From positions 1 to 22,685 of IMG/VR virus record IMGVR_UViG_3300034107_000040: a DNA stretch of 22,685 nt; one strand, written 5' to 3'. The notes beneath the pieces were generated by a model. That model worked only from the letters and a program-made list of their open reading frames with translations, was not told where the DNA came from and ran no database searches. Below, in pieces: positions 9,441 to 21,052 of this stretch (position 1 is the first letter of the stretch; each line of letters begins with the position of its first letter). The translations under genes were made by a program, and so were the position numbers. The stretch comes from a virus.

Positions 9441-10305
9441 CGAACTTGGTATTCCCGTCCCGGTAACGGTAGCGGGCAATGTCAATCAGGATACTGTTCA
9501 GATCTTGGCGCTTATGAACGCCAGTGGATATGAACTCCTGAGAAAGAGCGATTGGCGAGAACTGACGAAGCCCCACAGCTTCTTCACGGAATACACGACA
9601 ACGACGGGTACATACGACCCTTCTACGCTCCAGATCACTGGCATCCCGTCCACTGCCAGTCTGGACACCACCTACATGATTGTTGGCCTTGGCTGGCCCA
9701 ACGGCACGTTTATCTCTAGCGTCGATTCCGCTAGCCAAGTGACTGCCAGCACCTATCCCGAAAACACCGTAGTTAGCGGCGTGATTTACTTCCAAAAGGT
9801 GAAGTACGCACTGCCGTCTGATTACGACGCCATTGTGCCTCGTACACAATGGGACAAGTCCAAGCACTGGGAAATGCTTGGCCCCGAAAGCGCCCAACAA
9901 TGGGAATGGATTCTGAGCGGCTATATCAGCACCGGCCCGCGCATTCGCTGGCGCTTGTATGGCGAATATTTTCAGATCTGGCCCGGCACATCCACCAACG
10001 AATTTCTTGGCTTTGAGTACCGCTCTAAGGGCTGGGCAACGGCTGCTGACGGTACGCCAAAAAATAGCTTCACGGCTGACAACGACACTTGCATCTACCC
10101 AGATCGCGTCATGGTTCTCAGCACCAAGCTAAAGTACTTCCAAGCCAAGGGCTTTGACACCACCGCGCTGTTCCGCGACTATATGACGGAACTTGAGACC
10201 TCTATGGCTCAAAACATATCCGGCGCAAACCTGTCGTTCGCCCCGCGCCCTGGCAGCGTCCTAATTGGTTACGACAATATTCCGGACAGCGGCTATGGCT
10301 CTTAA
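9400..10305 (+). CDS. Head-to-tail connector / neck protein (putative)
   Basis: A 301-residue protein. The N-terminus (MLQLVTQVTSELGIPVPVTV, then a helix ending G-Y-E-L-L-R-K-S-D-W) is a pattern I know from podovirus-like genomes in the gene just before the Gp10-like hub. The middle and end are rich in aromatic residues (QWDKSKHWEMLGP, QQWEWILSGY, IRWRLYGEYFQIWPG) and probably form a beta sandwich with helices. No catalytic motif is seen. By position it would close the portal and start the tail, like P22 gp4 or tail-tubular proteins, but homology to those is not visible by eye. It overlaps the previous gene by 41 bases and the next by 11. The coding call is firm. Confidence 0.75.
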   Translation: MSSTMLQLVTQVTSELGIPVPVTVAGNVNQDTVQILALMNASGYELLRKSDWRELTKPHSFFTEYTTTTGTYDPSTLQITGIPSTASLDTTYMIVGLGWPNGTFISSVDSASQVTASTYPENTVVSGVIYFQKVKYALPSDYDAIVPRTQWDKSKHWEMLGPESAQQWEWILSGYISTGPRIRWRLYGEYFQIWPGTSTNEFLGFEYRSKGWATAADGTPKNSFTADNDTCIYPDRVMVLSTKLKYFQAKGFDTTALFRDYMTELETSMAQNISGANLSFAPRPGSVLIGYDNIPDSGYGS

Positions 10306-11848
10306 ACCTTCGCGCCTCGTACAGCGCAATGACGCTATGGTCGATTCGCTTCCGTCGCCAATTGGCGGCTGGAATGCGCGTGATTCCATTGCCAATATGG
10401 AACCAACCGACGCTGTAACGATGATCAATATGTTCCCCACCGTGTCGTCTGTCACTATGCGCGGTGGGTACACTGAGTTTGCGACCGGCCTAGACGGCAA
10501 GGTCCAAACGCTCATGACCTACAATGCCGGTGCAAACTCCAAGATGTTTGCGGTCACTAGCACGGGCAAGATTTACGATGTGACAACGGCAGGCCCCGTG
10601 GGTGCTCCGCTCATCACCGGCCTGTCCAACGGCATCTGGGAATACATCAACATCACGACCCCCGGCGGTAGCTTCTTGATGGCCGTCAACGGCATCGACT
10701 TGCCAATTCTATATGACGGAACAACCGTTACAAATCCGTCCATCACGGGCGTTACACCATCAGACCTGAAAAACATTATGCTGTTCAAAAACCGCATTTG
10801 GTTCATTCAGAAAGAGACGCTGATAGCGTGGTATCTGCCAACCAGTGCAATCGGCGGCGCGGCCCAACAGTTTGACTTTAGCCAGCTTGCCCGCTTTGGC
10901 GGTCGCTTGGTCGATCTGGATAGCTGGACCATCGACGCAGGCTACGGCGTTGACGACAATCTGGCCTTCATCACCAGCGAAGGTGAGGTCATTATCTACC
11001 GAGGCACCGACCCCGCTAGCATTGCGACTTGGGGCCTAATCGGTATCTGGAAGATGGGTTCGCCTATCGGTGAACGCTGTATGCTCAAGTGGGGCGGCGA
11101 CCTTCTCATTTTGACCTATGACGGCCTTATACCTATGGCGCAGTCATTGCAGTCATCCCGCCTAGATCCCCGCGTAGCCTTCTCTGACAAGATCCAAGGG
11201 GCCATTACGCAGGCAACGACGGATTACGGCGGGGACCATGCCGAAGTGGGCTGGGAAATTGCCGACAGCGCCAAGCAAAATGCTGTGTGGATTAACGTCC
11301 CTGTGGCGGACGGCAAGCAAGAACAATATGTCATGAACACCATCACAAAGTCGTGGTGCCAGTTTCAAGGCTGGGCGGCGTACTGCTGGGCGACCTATGT
11401 GGACGATCCTTATTTCGGTAGCGATGGCTATGTTGCCAAGGCGTGGGACACCATCAATTACACAGACGGCGGCTCCAACATCGTCACTCAAACGCTCCAA
11501 GCGTTTAACTATTTTGGCTCACGCGGCGTAAAGAAGTACTTTACGCGGGCGCGGCCTAGCTTCTTTAGCAATGGCCTTCCGTCTATTCAAGTCGGCATGA
11601 ACATTGACTTTGACGTATCCGATACGACCGCCCCTGTCTCAGCGCCTTACATCTCGTTTGGCCTATGGGACGGCGGCATCTGGGATGCTTCTTTTTGGGG
11701 TTCGGGCGGGCAGAGCATTAACCCTTGGCTTGGTGTCACGGGCATTGGATACTGCGGTGCTCTTCAAATGAAAACGGCTAGCTCTGGCATTTCGCTACAG
11801 TGGGCCTCTACGGATGTGGTGTATCAAACCGGATGGTCTGGCATATAA
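10295..11848 (+). CDS. Tail hub / packaged-DNA stabilisation protein, Gp10-like (putative)
   Basis: A 517-residue protein probably forming a beta-propeller hub below the portal that seals packaged DNA, as P22 gp10 does. Visible features are I-N-M-F-P near residue 48, followed by M-R-G-G-Y-T-E-F. Repeated strand pairs follow (SKMFAVTSTGKIYDVTTAG, FLMAVNGIDLPILYDGTTV, FKNRIWFIQKETLIAWYLP). A WDGGIWDASFWG segment comes near the end. This order matches the gp10 type in which ordered blades are followed by a C-terminal domain. The ATG at 10295 is chosen over an upstream TTG at 10265 because it gives a short (11-base) overlap and a conventional M-A-L-K-P start; the ribosome site is weak (GGACAG). 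The length is slightly above P22 gp10. The assignment is by pattern and position. Confidence 0.7.
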   Translation: MALKPSRLVQRNDAMVDSLPSPIGGWNARDSIANMEPTDAVTMINMFPTVSSVTMRGGYTEFATGLDGKVQTLMTYNAGANSKMFAVTSTGKIYDVTTAGPVGAPLITGLSNGIWEYINITTPGGSFLMAVNGIDLPILYDGTTVTNPSITGVTPSDLKNIMLFKNRIWFIQKETLIAWYLPTSAIGGAAQQFDFSQLARFGGRLVDLDSWTIDAGYGVDDNLAFITSEGEVIIYRGTDPASIATWGLIGIWKMGSPIGERCMLKWGGDLLILTYDGLIPMAQSLQSSRLDPRVAFSDKIQGAITQATTDYGGDHAEVGWEIADSAKQNAVWINVPVADGKQEQYVMNTITKSWCQFQGWAAYCWATYVDDPYFGSDGYVAKAWDTINYTDGGSNIVTQTLQAFNYFGSRGVKKYFTRARPSFFSNGLPSIQVGMNIDFDVSDTTAPVSAPYISFGLWDGGIWDASFWGSGGQSINPWLGVTGIGYCGALQMKTASSGISLQWASTDVVYQTGWSGI

Positions 11849-12246
11849 TCAGCAACGAACTGGTCGGCCATTGGGTGGCCGAAAAGCTAGGCTCTGGATA
11901 CTTTGCCGCTCGCTCCAACGCCATTGGATTGGTGAAGGACGATAGGCTTATAGCCGGGGTGATATACGAGAATTGGAACGGGCGCTCAATCATGTGCCAC
12001 ATCGCTGTAGAAGGCCGTTTAACGCGGCGCTACCTCGGTGCGATCTTTGATTATGCGTTCAATGTGTGTAATGTGGAAAAGATAATTGTTCCGGTCGAAA
12101 GCCACAATTTGAGAAGCGTTAAGCTCATTGAGAACATGGGCTTCACCGAAGAGGGACGCATCAAGGATTGCCAGCCTGAAGGTGATACAATCTTGTACAC
12201 CATGACCAAGGGCGATTGTAGATTTCTAGGGGATCGTTATGGGTAA
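11833..12246 (+). CDS. GNAT-family N-acetyltransferase
   Basis: A 137-residue predicted acyltransferase using acetyl-CoA. The fold pattern is clear. V-K-D-D-R-L-I-A-G-V-I-Y (34-45) and CHIAVEG (55-61) are the central strands. The region around R-R-Y-L-G-A-I-F-D-Y-A-F (65-76) takes the place of the CoA-binding motif. S-H-N-L-R-S-V-K-L-I-E-N-M-G-F-T-E-E-G-R (90-109) is the typical second half. The CoA loop lacks the usual Q/R-x-x-G-x-G/A pattern, so activity should be tested. Small GNAT genes in this place between tail and ejection genes recur in podovirus genomes; the substrate is unknown. The ATG at 11833 overlaps the hub gene by 16 bases; the longer GTG-start version (11800) would overlap it by 49. 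The next gene starts within its last 8 bases. Confidence 0.87.
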   Translation: MVWHIISNELVGHWVAEKLGSGYFAARSNAIGLVKDDRLIAGVIYENWNGRSIMCHIAVEGRLTRRYLGAIFDYAFNVCNVEKIIVPVESHNLRSVKLIENMGFTEEGRIKDCQPEGDTILYTMTKGDCRFLGDRYG

Positions 12247-14029
12247 AAAAACTCCAGCACCGCCGCCAGCGCCCGATTACGCAGCAGCAGCGACCGCTCA
12301 AGGCCAAGCTAACAAAGAGGCGGCGTTGCAAACGTCCGTCTTGAGCAATCCCAACATTATCAGTCCCTACGGCAACCAGACTGTAACGTACAGCCAAGAT
12401 CCCAATAACCCCGGCGGCGGTTCGCAGGCGACGGTTACACAGACCTTGACGCCAGAAGCACAGGCCGCGCTTAACGCGCAGCAGAAGACTCAGTTGGAAT
12501 TTGCCAACCTTGGCCTTCAGGGCATTGGTCAAGCAAAGAACATCCTTTCGACGCCATTTGATCCAAAACTGCCCAACCTTCAGACTTCCGTTGCCCCTAG
12601 CCCAGAACTAAATTTCGGACCTAATGCGGCAGACTATGCGGCTACTAGCAACGTTCAAGGCGACACCTACGGCAAGGCTGGGACGGTTGACGCTGGAATG
12701 TACGGCCAAGCTGGAACCGTCGCAGGCGGCGCTTACGGCACCGCGCAGGGCTTTGGGGCTGGTGACTTTGGCCTTGCCAAGGGAATCAATGCTTCTGACT
12801 TTGGCCAAGCCCAAGGCGTTAATTCCGAAAAGTACGGACTGGCCCAAGGCATCAATGCCGGAGACTATGGTCAAGCGCAGGGCATCAATGCCCAAGATTA
12901 TGGTCAGGCCCGTCGAAACATTGACACGTCCAACGTAGCGGCCATGCCGGTCAATGCGGGCATGACGGGCCAACAGGCCATCATGAGCCGCTTGCAGCCA
13001 CAGTTGCAGCAGTCCCGCGACGCTATGAGCCAGAACCTGATCAATCAGGGCATCACTCAAGGCAGCGAGGCGTACAACCGCGCTATGACCCAACAGGGTC
13101 AGCAAGAGAACGATATGCTGACGCAGGCCGCAGTGCAGGGCCTTAACCTTGATATGTCTGCCAATCAGCAGGGCTATAATCAAGCCGCGCAGAACGCCAA
13201 CTTCTATAACCAAGGTTTGGGCCAAGACTTTGGCCAAGGCACGACAGCGCAACAGATGCAGAACCAAGCCATTGCCCAGAATTTCGGGCAAGGGGCGCAG
13301 GCGCAGGAAATGCAGAACGCGGCCATTGGTCAGAACTTTGGCCAAAGCGCGACTGCCCAGCAAATAGGGAATGCCGCTATTGGCCAGAACTTTGGACAGG
13401 CGCTTAGTGCGAATCAATCGCAGAACCAAGCAATTGCTCAGAATTTTGGACAAGGCCAAGCCGCCAACCAAGCCCAGAACGCTGCCATTGCCCAAAACTT
13501 CGGGCAGGGTATGTCGTCTCAGCAGATGCAAAACCAAGCAATTGGTCAAAACTACGGACAAGGCGTCACGTCTCAGCAATTGCAAAATCAGGCCATTTCC
13601 CAAAACTACGGTCAGGGCATGTCGGCTCAAGACGCTGCAAACGCCGCACGGGCGCAGAACTATGGCCAAGCCTCTTCTTCTGCCGGCATGTACAATCAGG
13701 CCGCAGCGCAGCAGCAGAACCAGAACCTTCAGAATGCTCAGTTTGGCAACACTGCGCTTCAGCAGTCGCTTGCCCAGCAGTTGGCTTTGCGCAACCAACC
13801 CATCAACGAGATCAACTCGCTGATGAGCGGTTCGCAGATTCAAAACCCGCAGTTCCAAGCCTATTCGGGATCTAACGTCACAGCGGCCCCAATCTTCCAA
13901 GGGCTACAAGCTCAAGGCCAGTATGCTCAAAATCAGTACGGCCAACAGATGGCAGGGGCTAACGCAAACACCTCTGGCGTTATGGGCTTGCTGGGATCTG
14001 CTGCAATGGCTGGCGGGATGGCGTTTTAA
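12239..14029 (+). CDS. Repeat-rich internal virion (ejection) protein, putative
   Basis: A 596-residue protein. The Pro/Ala-rich N-terminus (GKKTPAPPPAPDYAAAATAQ, then N-P-N-I-I-S-P-Y-G-N-Q-T-V) is typical of a phage family encoded after the tail hub, usually taken as internal virion or tail-tip proteins. Residues 134-221 are eight 11-residue units with a G-Q-A-Q-G-I-N-A-x-D-Y-type consensus. Residues 334-477 are eight 18-residue units ending Q-N-[FY]-G-Q. Composition is dominated by Gln, Asn, Ala and Gly, with almost no Lys or Cys after the N-terminus. The C-terminus (GVMGLLGSAAMAGGMAF) is a Gly/Ala-rich hydrophobic tail that could insert in a membrane. A good ribosome site (AGGGGA) precedes the start. 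The precise role is inferred. Confidence 0.75.
   Translation: MGKKTPAPPPAPDYAAAATAQGQANKEAALQTSVLSNPNIISPYGNQTVTYSQDPNNPGGGSQATVTQTLTPEAQAALNAQQKTQLEFANLGLQGIGQAKNILSTPFDPKLPNLQTSVAPSPELNFGPNAADYAATSNVQGDTYGKAGTVDAGMYGQAGTVAGGAYGTAQGFGAGDFGLAKGINASDFGQAQGVNSEKYGLAQGINAGDYGQAQGINAQDYGQARRNIDTSNVAAMPVNAGMTGQQAIMSRLQPQLQQSRDAMSQNLINQGITQGSEAYNRAMTQQGQQENDMLTQAAVQGLNLDMSANQQGYNQAAQNANFYNQGLGQDFGQGTTAQQMQNQAIAQNFGQGAQAQEMQNAAIGQNFGQSATAQQIGNAAIGQNFGQALSANQSQNQAIAQNFGQGQAANQAQNAAIAQNFGQGMSSQQMQNQAIGQNYGQGVTSQQLQNQAISQNYGQGMSAQDAANAARAQNYGQASSSAGMYNQAAAQQQNQNLQNAQFGNTALQQSLAQQLALRNQPINEINSLMSGSQIQNPQFQAYSGSNVTAAPIFQGLQAQGQYAQNQYGQQMAGANANTSGVMGLLGSAAMAGGMAF
12638..12901 (+). repeat. Eight 33-bp units encoding 11-residue repeats
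   Basis: Eight units of exactly 33 bases, in frame. Each encodes an 11-residue unit with an aromatic residue (Tyr or Phe) at the end and Gly at the start of the next. Later units (GQAQGVNSEKY, GLAQGINAGDY, GQAQGINAQDY) are most alike and the first (AATSNVQGDTY) is most diverged. Confidence 0.85.
13238..13669 (+). repeat. Eight 54-bp units encoding 18-residue repeats
   Basis: Eight consecutive units of exactly 54 bases, in frame. The consensus is G-x-x-A-x-Q-x-Q-N-x-A-I-A-Q-N-F-G-Q. The A-I-x-Q-N-[FY]-G-Q core is kept in seven units; the last has A-R-A-Q-N-Y-G-Q. Positions 2-6 vary. No unit is gapped. Confidence 0.9.
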
Positions 14030-14724
14030 TGCTGGGACTAGCGTTCTCAGGCGGTAAGGATTCCTTGGCCTGCTGGTACTTGTACCGTGACCAGCAGCCT
14101 ATTGTAATATTTGTCAATACCGGCAAAGCGTATCCAGAAACCCTTGAACTCATTGAAGAAATCCGCAAAGAAGCCAAGGAATTTATTGAGGTAATGACGG
14201 ACCAAGAAGGGCAAACCAAGATCAACGGCATTCCGTCTGATATTGTCGCCATTGATTGGACGCCTTTTGGTCAATCCCTGTCAGGGGAAAAAGAGACCAA
14301 GATGCAGCCCTACCTCAATTGCTGCTACGAAAACATCTCTGGGCCTTTGATGCGGGCCGCTAAAGAGCGCGGGATAACCGAGCTTATACGCGGGCAGCGC
14401 ATTGACGATTCCCATAAGTCACCGGCCCGCCACGGTTCGGTGGTTGATGGCATAACCTTTATCCAGCCAATCGAAGACTGGACAGAAAAGCAGACGTTTG
14501 ATTTCGTGCGGTCTCAGCGAGGCTTTTTGCCCGACCATTACAAAATTGAACATACGAGCCTAGACTGCTATGACTGTACAGCGTTCATGGCGCACTCTGC
14601 CGACCGCATCGCGTGGACCAAAGAGAAGTACCCTGAGTTTTACGAGAAATATTCGGCCAAGATGTGCGCCCTAAAGGCCGCTTTGAAGCCCACCCTTGAT
14701 GCACTGGAGCGGGCCAATGGCTAA
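14029..14724 (+). CDS. PP-loop APS/PAPS reductase-like protein (CysH family)
   Basis: A 231-residue adenosine nucleotide alpha-hydrolase-fold enzyme of the phosphoadenosine phosphosulphate reductase family. The PP-loop motif SGGKDS is at residues 7-12. R-G-Q-R-I-D-D-S (121-128) is the family's second nucleotide-binding signature. Four cysteines, C98-C99 and C180-x-x-C183, are spaced CC-X80-CxxC, the pattern known for 4Fe-4S ligands in bacterial APS reductases. The usual C-terminal E-C-G-[IL]-H catalytic motif is absent; the only later Cys is C213 (KMCA), 30 residues after C183. The substrate may therefore differ from APS or PAPS. The gene lies between two putative ejection proteins and overlaps both (TAATG upstream, 8 bases downstream), so it is co-expressed with the virion. 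No dnd, tRNA-thiolation or sulphate-assimilation gene is nearby. Its phage role is unknown. Confidence 0.88.
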   Translation: MLGLAFSGGKDSLACWYLYRDQQPIVIFVNTGKAYPETLELIEEIRKEAKEFIEVMTDQEGQTKINGIPSDIVAIDWTPFGQSLSGEKETKMQPYLNCCYENISGPLMRAAKERGITELIRGQRIDDSHKSPARHGSVVDGITFIQPIEDWTEKQTFDFVRSQRGFLPDHYKIEHTSLDCYDCTAFMAHSADRIAWTKEKYPEFYEKYSAKMCALKAALKPTLDALERANG

Positions 14725-16180
14725 GATCAGCCTTACAGATTTTTCGTCTCAGGCCGCAGAAAACGCCCGTCGTCAACGCTTGGCTGAAATGCTGCAACAG
14801 CAGGGCATGGAACCTGAGAAGGTCTTTGAGTACAACGGCGTTCAAGCCCCAATATCGCCATTGGCTGGCCTTGGTAAGGCCCTGCAATTGGGCGTCGGCG
14901 CGTACATGGAAGCCAAGGGCGCAAAGAAGGCCACGGATCTTGAGAAGGCAAAACGCGAAGAAGCCATTCGTTTCCTGACCAAAGACATCAAGGGTTCTGA
15001 GCTAACCAAGTTTGAAGATCCGGCAACGGCTGGCGCTAGGTTCATGCCCGTTGAGCAACCGAAACCGCAAGCCATTAATACGGCTGTTCCGACCCTGCAA
15101 AACCCGTCTCCCGTTCCGCAAATGCAAGCCGCGCCTACGCAGCAAATGTACCAAGCGCCGCAAGCCGCACAGGCAACGGCTGCTGGGAATGTTGCGCCGC
15201 AGCCGGAAGAGCTTCAAAGGATGTATCTGCAAGCGGCCTTAAGCGGAAATGACATTCTGGCCCCCATTGCGGCTGATCGCTTCAAGAGCGGTCAGGCCAC
15301 TGCCGCCGTGCTTGCTGAAGACGAAGACTTCGCCCGCAAGGTTTCGGAAATCCCCGGCCTGTCTGAAGGCCAAAAAAGGCAGATCATTGCTACGCGGTCG
15401 GCAAATCCGCAAGCCGCTGGCGTGGCATTGGGTGAAATGTTGACGCCTGAAAAGCCAAGCGCCGGTCCATCTGGTGTTCAAGAATACGAATACGCTAAGA
15501 ACCAAGGCTACAAGGGATCTTATATGGACTTTGTGGGGGCCAAGCGTGAGGCAGGGCGAGCGCCTCCGCGTCAGGCCGCTCCCGCAAGCGGTAAGCCCGC
15601 CGCTCCGGCAATGCCATCAATCCCCGGCGTTCCCGAAGGATTTAAGCCAACCGCAGCGCAACTAAAGGAATTAACGGGTATTTCCCAAGCATCAAGCGCC
15701 GTAGACCAAGGACTAGAAGCTCTGGCTTCCGCCCCTGGCGCGTTTACCTTTACAAGAGGACTGGCGAGCCTAGGCGGAGAAATGGGCGAGGCTTTGGCGG
15801 CAAAGAACGACACTGAGGCAGATCGTGTTGCGCGATATGCGGTTTTTAACAATGTTTCCTCTACGATTAAGGAGCGAGCCGGTACCGCTCAATCTAAATC
15901 TGAAAAAGAAACATTGATGGCGTTCTTGCCAACTAAATTTGACAGCGACGATGTTGTTAAAAGCAAATTCATTGCTTACAAAAATTATTTAGTGAGCAAG
16001 CGAGAAGCCACATTAAATCCCATGGCACCACTGAAAGACACGTCTCGCGCTCCTGCGTCAGGTGGCGGGTCTTCAGCGCCAGCGGGCGCAATTGATATGC
16101 TCAGAAAAAACCCCAGTATGGCCCCGGCCTTTGATGCTAAATATGGGGCTGGCGCATCTAAAAGGGCTTTGGGGGGATAA
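14717..16180 (+). CDS. Internal virion (ejection) protein, putative, 487 residues
   Basis: A 487-residue protein with helical, charged ends and a low-complexity Pro/Gln/Ala linker (about 110-165). Three parts look familiar from phage internal virion proteins. These are an N-terminal L-A-E-M-L-Q-Q-Q-G plus G-K-A-L-Q-L-G-V-G-A-Y amphipathic region (about 22-63), a Q-E-Y-E-Y-A-K-N-Q-G-Y-K-G-S-Y-M-D-F motif (255-272), and a C-terminal A-I-D-M-L-R-K-N-P ... F-D-A-K-Y-G-A-G-A segment. The ATG at 14717 has GGAGCGGG just upstream and overlaps the previous stop by 8 bases; the TTG at 14696 would give a 29-base overlap and was rejected. Its stop abuts the next ATG. No enzymatic motif is seen. Ejection with the DNA is inferred from gene order. 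Confidence 0.72.
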   Translation: MAKISLTDFSSQAAENARRQRLAEMLQQQGMEPEKVFEYNGVQAPISPLAGLGKALQLGVGAYMEAKGAKKATDLEKAKREEAIRFLTKDIKGSELTKFEDPATAGARFMPVEQPKPQAINTAVPTLQNPSPVPQMQAAPTQQMYQAPQAAQATAAGNVAPQPEELQRMYLQAALSGNDILAPIAADRFKSGQATAAVLAEDEDFARKVSEIPGLSEGQKRQIIATRSANPQAAGVALGEMLTPEKPSAGPSGVQEYEYAKNQGYKGSYMDFVGAKREAGRAPPRQAAPASGKPAAPAMPSIPGVPEGFKPTAAQLKELTGISQASSAVDQGLEALASAPGAFTFTRGLASLGGEMGEALAAKNDTEADRVARYAVFNNVSSTIKERAGTAQSKSEKETLMAFLPTKFDSDDVVKSKFIAYKNYLVSKREATLNPMAPLKDTSRAPASGGGSSAPAGAIDMLRKNPSMAPAFDAKYGAGASKRALGG

Positions 16181-18103: not shown

Positions 18104-18853
18104 ATGTCTTTTAACGGCACCGGCATATTCCAGATCAACACCCCCGGCCAGCCCGTTGTTTCGGGCACGACCATCACCGCCACGGCGTTCAACACGCTGA
18201 TGACTGACATTGCCACGGGCCTGACCAACTGTCTGACCAAGGACGGACAATCCACCCCGACCGCTAACATTAAGATGGGTAGCTACAAGCTCACCGGCCT
18301 TGGCGCTGCGACGACGGCGGGCGATGCCCTGTCGTTCGGCAACATAGCAACCATCAGCACGTTGACGCTTACGAATGCCCTGTCTGTGGCAAACGGCGGC
18401 ACGGGCCTAACGACGCTGACATCCAAGGGCGTACTGATCGGGAACGGCGCGGCTGCGCCTACGTTTGTGGTCGGTGGAACCACCGGATATGTGCTGACCT
18501 GGGATGGCGCCGACTGGGTGTCATCCGCCCCAGCCTCAAGCGGCCTAGCCGCAGCCACGACCAAGACGGCCAACTACACGGCGGTCGCTGGCGACGTGCT
18601 GGCCTGCGACACCATTGCCGTGGGCGCGTTCTCCATCACCCTGCCCGCCTCGCCGGTCGCAGGGCAGAAGCCCATTATCATCTTCGACGCAGGCACGACC
18701 GACACGGTTAACGGCTTTGCGACCAACAACCTGACCGTCCTGCGTAACGGCTCGACCATTCATGGTTTGTCAGATGACGTGGTCTTCTCAACCAAAGGCG
18801 TCAGCGTTATCTTTGAATATATCGCCGGAACATGGAGATTGAGAATTGGTTGA
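18104..18853 (+). CDS. Tail-fibre-type protein
   Basis: A 249-residue protein with several hallmarks of phage tail fibre proteins. T-A-T-A-F-N-T-L-M-T-D-I-A-T-G-L-T followed by LTKDGQSTPTANIKMGSYKL (about 43-62) is a widespread fibre motif. SVANGGTGLTTLTSKGVLIG (about 93-113) with T-T-G-Y-V-L-T-W-D-G-A-D-W is the repeat-type shaft segment seen in many fibres. The last 70 residues form a compact beta module similar to that encoded at 8511-8867. It starts 3 bases after the previous stop, with AAGGA about 9 bases upstream. The protein is short for a fibre, so it is probably an adaptor or short fibre, and the propeller proteins that follow are better candidates for receptor contact. Confidence 0.78.
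   Translation: MSFNGTGIFQINTPGQPVVSGTTITATAFNTLMTDIATGLTNCLTKDGQSTPTANIKMGSYKLTGLGAATTAGDALSFGNIATISTLTLTNALSVANGGTGLTTLTSKGVLIGNGAAAPTFVVGGTTGYVLTWDGADWVSSAPASSGLAAATTKTANYTAVAGDVLACDTIAVGAFSITLPASPVAGQKPIIIFDAGTTDTVNGFATNNLTVLRNGSTIHGLSDDVVFSTKGVSVIFEYIAGTWRLRIG
18834..18838 (+). promoter_or_regulatory. Ribosome binding site supporting a TTG start at 18846
   Basis: GGAGA lies 7 bases before the TTG at 18846. This start aligns the protein's N-terminus with that of its paralogue (ATG at 19946), and no in-frame ATG lies in the conserved N-terminal segment. Confidence 0.65.
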
Positions 18854-19943
18854 CGCATCAAGCCTTCTTAATTTCAGTTCGTCGCCCCTTGCTGTCGGGG
18901 ACTGGACCTACTCTGCCTATGCGCGGAGTGCGCCGTCCTATCTGCCTCTGAACAGTTACACGGCGTCTTATCTCGTGTCGTCTTATCCGGCTTTAGGGGC
19001 GCTGATTGTGCCGGTGATTACGCCCGTGAGCTATACGGCTACGGCTAGGACGCTATCAAGCGCAGGAACTTGGATATCGGTGGCTTACGGCAACGGCATT
19101 TTTGTTGCTGTAGGAGGAAGTGCAACTGTTGCGGCCTCAAGCCCAGACGGCATTACATGGACCTCTAGGACCATGCCTTCAGCGGGCTGGAGTGCGGTCA
19201 CTTTTGGCAATGGGGTATTTGTTGCGGTGGCAACCGGTTCCAATGTTTCTGCCACCTCTGTGGATGGCATCACTTGGACGGCCAGAACCATATCTGCGAC
19301 AACGGCATGGTATGGCGTTGGGTATGGCAACGGACTTTTTGTGGCCGTGTCAAACACATCCGGCACGATTGCATCCTCTTCGCCAGACGGTATCACTTGG
19401 ACAGCTAGAACTTTGCCCGCGACCCAAAGCTGGACTTCGGTTGCCTATGGCAATGGGGTTTATGTTGCTATCGGACAAACAGCCACGGGCGCTGTTTCTA
19501 CAGATGGGATCACTTGGCGCTCAACCACCCTGCCAAGTGCGATAAGCTGGCAAAGCGTAACCTTTGGGAATGGTGTTTTTGTTGCCATCCCCTTTGGTGG
19601 AGCGGTGGCGGCAACATCCACAAATGGGATCGATTGGGTGTCAAGAACCTTGCCATCCAATTCAAATTGGTCATGTGTAACCTATGGCAACAATGCGTTT
19701 GTTACGGTTGCCTATGGCTCAAATATAGCCGCAACATCGCCCGACGGCGTCACATGGACCTCCAGAACGCTTCCGTCATCAAGCAACTGGTTTTCCGTTG
19801 CGTATGGTGCCTCTAAATTTTCAACAGTAGCGTCGGGATCAACTGTGGCCGCCACCATAGACTACGCCGTAAACGCCACGTCCTTCGTTCTCCCCGTCGT
19901 CGCGCCCCGATCCGGAACCACCCCATACGTTAAGGCGACTTAA
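18846..19943 (+). CDS. Putative receptor-binding propeller protein, copy 1 (TTG start)
   Basis: A 365-residue protein, likely at the tail tip. Residues about 1-62 (L-P-L-N-S-Y-T-A-S-Y-L-V-S-S-Y-P-A-L-G-A) match the second copy and probably anchor it to the tail. Then come seven repeats of about 40 residues, each W-x-x-V-x-[YF]-G-N-G-x-[FY]-V-A-[VI] followed by S-x-D-G-I-T-W-T-x-R-T. Seven such units predict a seven-bladed beta-propeller. The S-x-D-G-x-T-W motif resembles the sialidase Asp-box, one residue shorter. The C-terminus (AATIDYAVNATSFVLP) is shared with copy 2. The start is a TTG with a GGAGA site, overlapping the previous gene by 8 bases. A glycan- or protein-binding role is inferred; sialidase-type catalytic residues were not identified. 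Confidence 0.82.
   Translation: MVDASSLLNFSSSPLAVGDWTYSAYARSAPSYLPLNSYTASYLVSSYPALGALIVPVITPVSYTATARTLSSAGTWISVAYGNGIFVAVGGSATVAASSPDGITWTSRTMPSAGWSAVTFGNGVFVAVATGSNVSATSVDGITWTARTISATTAWYGVGYGNGLFVAVSNTSGTIASSSPDGITWTARTLPATQSWTSVAYGNGVYVAIGQTATGAVSTDGITWRSTTLPSAISWQSVTFGNGVFVAIPFGGAVAATSTNGIDWVSRTLPSNSNWSCVTYGNNAFVTVAYGSNIAATSPDGVTWTSRTLPSSSNWFSVAYGASKFSTVASGSTVAATIDYAVNATSFVLPVVAPRSGTTPYVKAT
18939..19051 (+). repeat. Direct repeat A, copy 1 (N-terminal anchor region)
   Basis: A 113-base block near the start of the first propeller gene. It is nearly identical in protein and largely identical in DNA to 20042-20154 in the second gene, with no length change. Confidence 0.8.
19848..19940 (+). 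repeat. Direct repeat B, copy 1 (C-terminal region)
   Basis: A 93-base block at the end of the first propeller gene, matching 20957-21049 at the end of the second. Its final AAGG (19932-19935) doubles as the likely ribosome site of the next gene. Confidence 0.78.
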
Positions 19944-19945
19944 TC

Positions 19946-21052
19946 ATGGCCGTAAACGCATCCGCCCTTGTGAATTTCAGCACCACGGGCTTGAACGTCG
20001 GGGACTACACCTACTCGCTCTATGCGCTGTCGGCTCCGGGGTATTTGCCTCTGAACAGCTATACGAGCAGCTATCTGGTTTCTAGCTATCCGGCTTTGGG
20101 GGCTTTGATTGTGCCGGTGATTACTCCGGTTAGCTATGTGGCTACGGCTAGGACAATGCCCGTTGGTGCATCTTGGATTTCTGCGGCCTACGGTAACGGC
20201 GTTTTTGTAGCCGTTGGCTTTAACTCTTCTAATGCCGCGAGCAGCACAGACGGCATCACTTGGACGACGCGAACGCTGCCATCCGTTTCAAGTTGGTATC
20301 ATGTGGCCTTTGGCAATGGCATCTTTGTCGCCGTCAGTCAGTCGGGAACGGCAATGGTGGCCACATCCACGGATGGCATCACTTGGACACAAAGAACCGC
20401 TCCTTTTGGAACGAATTACTCGGTTTGTTTTGGAAACGGTAGGTTTGTCACTGTCGGCGGCGGCGGTGGGTCTATGGTGTCTACCGATGGTATTAATTGG
20501 ACCTCTGGGTCTTTTGCTAACGGTTTTACTGACGTAGTTTACGGTAATGGCGTTTTTGTTGCTGTTAACGATAGCTTTGCAAACGTATGCCTTGTTTCCA
20601 CCGATGGACTTACAACAACTGCCACGGGAACAATGCCCGCAACCACTAACTATTATGCCGTAGAGTTTGGCGGTGGTTTCTTTGTGGCCATATCGCGCAT
20701 TTCTGGGACTATGGCAGCTAGATCGGTTAACGGTATTGATTGGGTGTCCAGCACCCTCCCCACAACGGCGATTTGGCAAAATATCACTTACGGAAACAAC
20801 TCGTTTCTTGCCATCGGCAATGCCACCAACGGTGCCACTTCGCCAGACGGCATCACTTGGACGGCCCGCACTTTGTCGTCTTCAACCTCTTGGCGCGGGG
20901 CAACCTTTGGCGCTGGCAAGTTTGTAATCACCTCTGCCTTTGTCGGAACTACCATAGCCGCCACCATCGACTACGCCGTCAACGCCACCTCATTCGTCCT
21001 GCCCAACGTCCAGACCCTCACCGGCACCACCGCTTACATAAAGGCGACATAA
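19946..21052 (+). CDS. Putative receptor-binding propeller protein, copy 2
   Basis: A 368-residue paralogue of the preceding protein, starting 2 bases after its stop. The first 62 residues and last 40 are closely shared (YLPLNSYT, SYLVSSYPALGALIVPVITP; AATIDYAVNATSFVLP). The seven central repeats have diverged: blades 3 and 4 (SVCFGNGRFVTVGGGGG and DVVYGNGVFVAVNDS) have lost the full S-x-D-G-I-T-W-T-x-R pattern, and blade 4 reads S-T-D-G-L-T-T-T. Part of the centre is visibly more A/T-rich than the flanks. It is probably a second tail-tip adhesin with different specificity, or a hetero-oligomer partner. The ribosome site is AAGG in the end of copy 1, 10 bases upstream. The function is inferred. 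Confidence 0.82.
   Translation: MAVNASALVNFSTTGLNVGDYTYSLYALSAPGYLPLNSYTSSYLVSSYPALGALIVPVITPVSYVATARTMPVGASWISAAYGNGVFVAVGFNSSNAASSTDGITWTTRTLPSVSSWYHVAFGNGIFVAVSQSGTAMVATSTDGITWTQRTAPFGTNYSVCFGNGRFVTVGGGGGSMVSTDGINWTSGSFANGFTDVVYGNGVFVAVNDSFANVCLVSTDGLTTTATGTMPATTNYYAVEFGGGFFVAISRISGTMAARSVNGIDWVSSTLPTTAIWQNITYGNNSFLAIGNATNGATSPDGITWTARTLSSSTSWRGATFGAGKFVITSAFVGTTIAATIDYAVNATSFVLPNVQTLTGTTAYIKAT
20042..20154 (+). repeat. Direct repeat A, copy 2
   Basis: Second copy of the 113-base block at 18939-19051. Differences are mostly at third codon positions. Confidence 0.8.
20957..21049 (+). repeat. Direct repeat B, copy 2
   Basis: Second copy of the 93-base block at 19848-19940. As in copy 1, the terminal AAGG (21041-21044) serves as the probable ribosome site of the gene that follows. 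Confidence 0.78.

Follow-up and report, generated by a model that had tools for sequence, protein, structure and literature searches.

The 231-amino-acid protein encoded on the plus strand at positions 14029-14724 of the window, by which is meant the whole 22,685-nucleotide stretch of viral DNA analysed here, belongs to the PAPS_reduct (PF01507) family of PP-loop proteins, as indicated by Pfam and phrog matches, by its relatives and by a structural model. With a probability of roughly 0.6, it represents a PF01507 clade of ATP-pyrophosphatase type that carries a predicted [4Fe-4S] cluster and adenylates some other substrate, rather than a sulphonucleotide reductase, and that is borne by phages as optional cargo. 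The family is already known and is annotated as PAPS reductase in Bcep22-like phages; the function assigned to it looks wrong.

The protein matches PF01507 with an E value of 8e-14 (52.5 bits, against a cut-off of 22.5) and also the phage family phrog_424. Its scores against the NCBIfam models TIGR02055, TIGR00434 and TIGR02057 (29-36 bits) are below the respective cut-offs of 165-254, and the best NCBIfam match, PRK08557, lies far under its own cut-off; a weak profile match to Cap9 was also obtained. A canonical PP-loop, SGGKDS, occupies residues 7-12 (14047-14064; this and the following motifs are on the plus strand), as seen in both the translation and the alignment. Cysteines are located at residues 15, 98, 99, 180, 183 and 213, and the predicted [4Fe-4S] ligands are C98-C99 (14320-14325) and C180-x-x-C183 (14566-14577), with exactly 80 residues between C99 and C180. 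The sequence RGQRIDDS at residues 121-128 (14389-14412) is aligned with TGQRREQS of APS reductases. These motif positions and the spacing, first described in a sequence-only reading, were confirmed residue by residue. The same reading had noted that the ECG[IL]H motif is missing and that only C213 (14665-14667) lies downstream; the motif was indeed not found in the 231 residues, and C213, having no equivalent among catalytic cysteines, can be ruled out as a displaced catalytic residue because its position is not conserved.

When the phage proteins were aligned with the hosts' own CysH proteins from prophage-carrying genomes, E. coli CysH and CysD, the four cysteines fell in the same columns as the CC and CxPC cluster ligands of APS reductases, as had been supposed from their spacing. 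The PP-loop of the phage proteins is SGGKDS, as in CysD and DndC, whereas the reductases instead have SLAAED, SFGAED or SFGIQA. The sulphonucleotide-binding segment IRKVEPL is absent from the phage proteins in this alignment, and so is the ECGLH tail, ECG[IL]H being present in all six reference reductases. In a tree of 43 sequences, the phage sequences come together in a single clade (98/97), apart from the joint group of APR and PAPSR (100/97), CysD and the DndC group, the branches that join these PP-loop clades being weak (52/14 at the root fork). The earlier suggestion of a different substrate is thus strengthened by a PP-loop that is not of the APS-reductase type, a feature that had been missed.

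The AlphaFold model of the protein (pLDDT 93.6, pTM 0.88) shows the reductase/PP-loop fold. Residues 7-12, which carry the SGGxDS/T sequence of N-type ATP pyrophosphatases, directly follow the strand formed by residues 2-5. The nearest solved folds are those of PAPS/APS reductases (VIA Z 12-14), followed by GMP synthetase, NcsA, TtuA and LarE (Z 10-12).

The whole window gave no megablast match to phage records. Matches of the PP-loop protein were found by tblastn in Bcep22-like Burkholderia phages, an Aeromonas phage and a Manatee Spring phage, and profile scans detected the gene family in hundreds of viral contigs and in prophages of Nitrosovibrio, Caballeronia, Burkholderia, Comamonas and alphaproteobacterial genomes. 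SGG[KR]DS and CC-x(~80)-CxxC are kept together in all 89 distinct relatives, the most remote of which are about 30% identical, so the expectation that homologues would retain the four cysteines was borne out. This count is partly circular for two of the motifs, since some of the set came from searches whose patterns included the PP-loop or CxxC. The CC pair, however, featured in none of these patterns, and the capsid-selected members show all of the motifs too. ECG[IL]H occurs in none of the 89, and there is no conserved cysteine downstream. Purifying selection on the gene is strong (dN/dS of 0.07 against the nearest relative). Several individual sequences are worth recording. In a prophage of Comamonas sp. 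JUb58 (L099:7425-8705, L146), a class I methyltransferase domain (Methyltransf_11, E 1e-18) precedes the PP-loop enzyme within one fusion protein. The annotated coding sequence in Aeromonas phage phiA008 (L005:9941-10663) starts late, at 10130, and omits the PP-loop, and the open frame upstream carries SGGRDS. In the Nitrosovibrio tenuis relative (L092), the match begins only at residue 62 and the PP-loop is missing; it could be a prophage copy that has decayed. Three hits in the phage collection with genuine cysH or cysD (H31, H33, H34) look like bacterial contigs.

The window corresponds to the region of structural genes in a tailed phage, in the order terminase, portal, capsid, head-stabilisation-like gene, GNAT gene, internal virion protein gene, PP-loop gene, further virion-type genes and repeated tail genes. 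The latter include tandem paralogues at 18846-19943 and 19946-21052, which are 57% identical and carry WTxRTLP-type repeats. The head-stabilisation-like gene (10265-11848, plus strand; phrog_5107, where it is labelled amidase) served as the synteny anchor. Its end is overlapped by the GNAT acetyltransferase-like gene (11800-12246, plus strand; Acetyltransf_4, E 3e-5), the start of which is uncertain (11800 or about 11833) and which is nearly universal in the relatives. The upstream internal virion protein (12239-14029, plus strand; phrog_6121) begins with MGKK..PPPAPD. Its homology to BcepIL02 gp66 is not detectable directly by profile; a link between the two is suggested by gene position and by an N-terminal segment shared through intermediates such as L098. 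The upstream virion gene contains 54-bp tandem repeats (13487-13618), and an antisense ORF of 430 amino acids across it (12608-13900) is probably an artefact of the repeats. Downstream of the PP-loop gene lies the gene for a virion-type protein without a Pfam match (14717-16180, plus strand); ATG 14717 is its most likely start, the mechanically listed TTG 14696 being less likely. Homology, together with the proteomics of a relative, identifies the products of the genes next to the PP-loop gene as virion proteins, which are presumably ejected.

The PP-loop gene overlaps both of these neighbours. At TAATG (14027-14031, plus strand), the final A of the upstream stop codon TAA is shared with the ATG of the PP-loop gene, and at the other end its stop lies within an 8-nucleotide overlap with the downstream gene (14717-14724, plus strand). 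Exactly the same 1-nucleotide overlap with the upstream stop is seen in 73 of 90 distinct relatives and is an old, kept trait. Because of this conservation, late co-translation of the PP-loop gene is well supported, and the stop-start arrangement points to translational coupling with the upstream virion gene. Neither a promoter nor a terminator of the gene's own was found above shuffled background. The overlaps had earlier been taken to indicate synthesis late in infection in step with virion proteins, and this part of the proposal is likely to be correct, whereas a role tied to the virion is not supported. A metabolic role of the enzyme would still be compatible with late expression.

The order head gene, GNAT gene, virion protein gene, PP-loop gene, virion protein gene is found in nearly all close relatives and also in BcepIL02. 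A survey of gene position in related phages, proposed earlier as a check, shows that the slot is kept in these phages, but also that the gene is absent from most capsid-selected relatives: among the best 80 loci, and as a rough estimate, it occurs in 3 of 31 such relatives and the GNAT gene in 29. In relatives that lack it, the two virion genes (or a small ORF) are adjacent; L175, unlike its partner L045, lacks the PP-loop gene, and the alignment of the two picks up again where that gene ends. The head-gene tree forces at least 11 gains or losses. Distances between the PP-loop proteins nevertheless track those of their neighbours (Mantel r of 0.91 with the head gene and 0.90 with the GNAT gene, 55 core members), which makes recent repeated capture into the slot less likely, even with the gains or losses that the tree demands. 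The gene is widespread and optional in phages, and its pattern fits that of an old gene often lost. An obligatory pair of GNAT and PP-loop genes can be ruled out, given that the former is nearly universal and the latter optional.

We infer ATP-pyrophosphatase chemistry with a [4Fe-4S] cluster because of the type of PP-loop, the position in the tree, the fold neighbours and the precedent of CasCysH, although ATP turnover does not follow from an intact PP-loop alone. SGGKDS would bind ATP, which would be split to AMP and PPi while the substrate is adenylated. The cluster, placed beside the pocket, would position the substrate or join in a second step, either sulphur transfer or a reaction with another nucleophile. 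The enzyme would be synthesized late, through translation together with the upstream internal virion protein, and would probably act in the infected (or lysogenic) cell, outside the particle.

A specific form of this explanation, which does not exclude the general one, is a sulphur transferase resembling DndC, TtuA or NcsA that adenylates and then thiolates a nucleic acid or a small molecule. It is conceivable but tentative. A canonical PP-loop combined with [4Fe-4S]-type cysteines is what these three enzymes have, and NcsA, TtuA and LarE are among the structural neighbours; on the other hand, the phage proteins lie outside the DndC clade, and none of the window proteins that were scanned was recognised as a cysteine desulphurase or a sulphur carrier. 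The cluster of APS reductases has a structural or electrostatic role, and by analogy such a role may suit four ligands better than sulphur transfer does. Sulphur transfer by TtuA, NcsA and LarE needs an open iron site in a cluster held by three cysteines (PMC9283937). The sulphur-transfer version is weakened because the phage protein has four APR-type ligands, one more than the cysteines that hold the open clusters in TtuA, NcsA and Thermotoga maritima LarE. Cysteine quartets can also bind zinc, so that the four residues might hold a structural metal in a protein that merely binds nucleotides; this is quite improbable, as the CC and CxxC columns are those of [4Fe-4S] ligands in APS reductases and the PP-loop is invariant, as expected for an active enzyme.

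The established annotation implies a genuine APS/PAPS reductase, an auxiliary metabolic gene (AMG) whose product would enhance sulphate assimilation in the host, another residue or a partner acting in trans providing the catalytic thiol. Such cysH-type phage genes have been treated as sulphate-assimilation morons (PMC9144972, PMC10269572, PMC2920897), the first two of these sources so annotating the gene in Bcep22-like phages, and the PF01507 match, the APR-type cluster ligands and the APS/PAPS reductases as best structural neighbours agree with this. Nevertheless, the catalytic cysteine motif is absent throughout the family, the degenerate sulphonucleotide P-loop is replaced by an ATP-type PP-loop, and the clade is separate. 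All seven prophage host genomes checked have a cysH-type gene of their own, which rules out, for these seven, the supply of a step missing in the host. With cysH present in the hosts and the catalytic residue missing from the phage proteins, the metabolic reading is unlikely here. Also unlikely is an enzyme linked to the virion, either packaged or modifying the upstream internal virion protein, perhaps together with the GNAT protein. Maintenance of the gene order across distant phages and the conserved stop-start overlap would fit such a link. Virion proteomics, the check proposed for packaging, is available for one relative, JC1, whose gene product is 94% identical to BcepIL02 gp67: the virion list includes gp64 (the upstream neighbour) as well as gp67 and gp68, whereas gp63 (GNAT) and gp65 (the PP-loop family) do not appear in it (PMC9144972), a non-detection that is negative evidence from CsCl virions of a single phage. 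A packaged or essential virion enzyme is argued against because gp65 is missing from this list and because the gene is optional, having been lost repeatedly while the neighbouring virion genes stay; a role tied to the virion is thus not supported. A highly speculative variant is a pathway in which the GNAT protein and the Fe-S PP-loop enzyme (with the fused methyltransferase in the one Comamonas prophage) would modify the internal virion protein whose gene lies between theirs, or else a target in the host met by that protein, amounting to Fe-S-dependent modification of an ejection protein.

Viral cysH is a recurrent item in virome AMG papers, where it is regularly scored as a sulphur AMG and cited as evidence that viruses direct the sulphur cycle. 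As reductase chemistry is very unlikely in this large family, tallies of this kind may be misleading, and the name cysH conceals a widespread enzyme of Fe-S type. Since close relatives with and without the gene exist naturally, its role is directly testable.

Among known systems, assimilatory APS reductase (CysH with [4Fe-4S]; PDB 2goy, 7lhr/7lhs) shares the fold and the four cluster cysteines, with 79-81 residues between the pairs; the phage protein differs in lacking the ECG[IL]H cysteine and IRKVEPL, in its ATP-type PP-loop and in its separate clade. The PAPS-reductase-like protein of Bcep22-like phages (BcepIL02 gp67, JC1 gp65) belongs to the same clade, has the same motifs and is likewise encoded directly behind the genes for a GNAT and an internal virion protein, although it is only about 36% identical to the window protein and comes from a different podovirus group. 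CysD, the small subunit of ATP sulphurylase, has the SGGKDS PP-loop and the same fold, but is without the four-cysteine site and works with CysN. DndC, which functions in phosphorothioation, is related and combines a PP-loop of the sequence SGGKDST with an Fe-S site; it has a single cysteine where the phage protein has CC, is longer, forms a separate clade and is encoded in a dnd operon, whereas the window and its relatives show a virion-gene operon and no dnd context. TtuA, NcsA and T. maritima LarE likewise combine a PP-loop with [4Fe-4S], but their clusters are open, three-cysteine ones (the fourth cysteine of T. maritima LarE is present and is not a ligand; PMC9283937), and the sequence relation is very remote. 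Type IV-B CasCysH, for which AMPylation of a substrate has been predicted, is CysH-like, carries SGGXDS/T and lacks the catalytic cysteine (PMC8175902); it differs in belonging to a CRISPR RNP locus.
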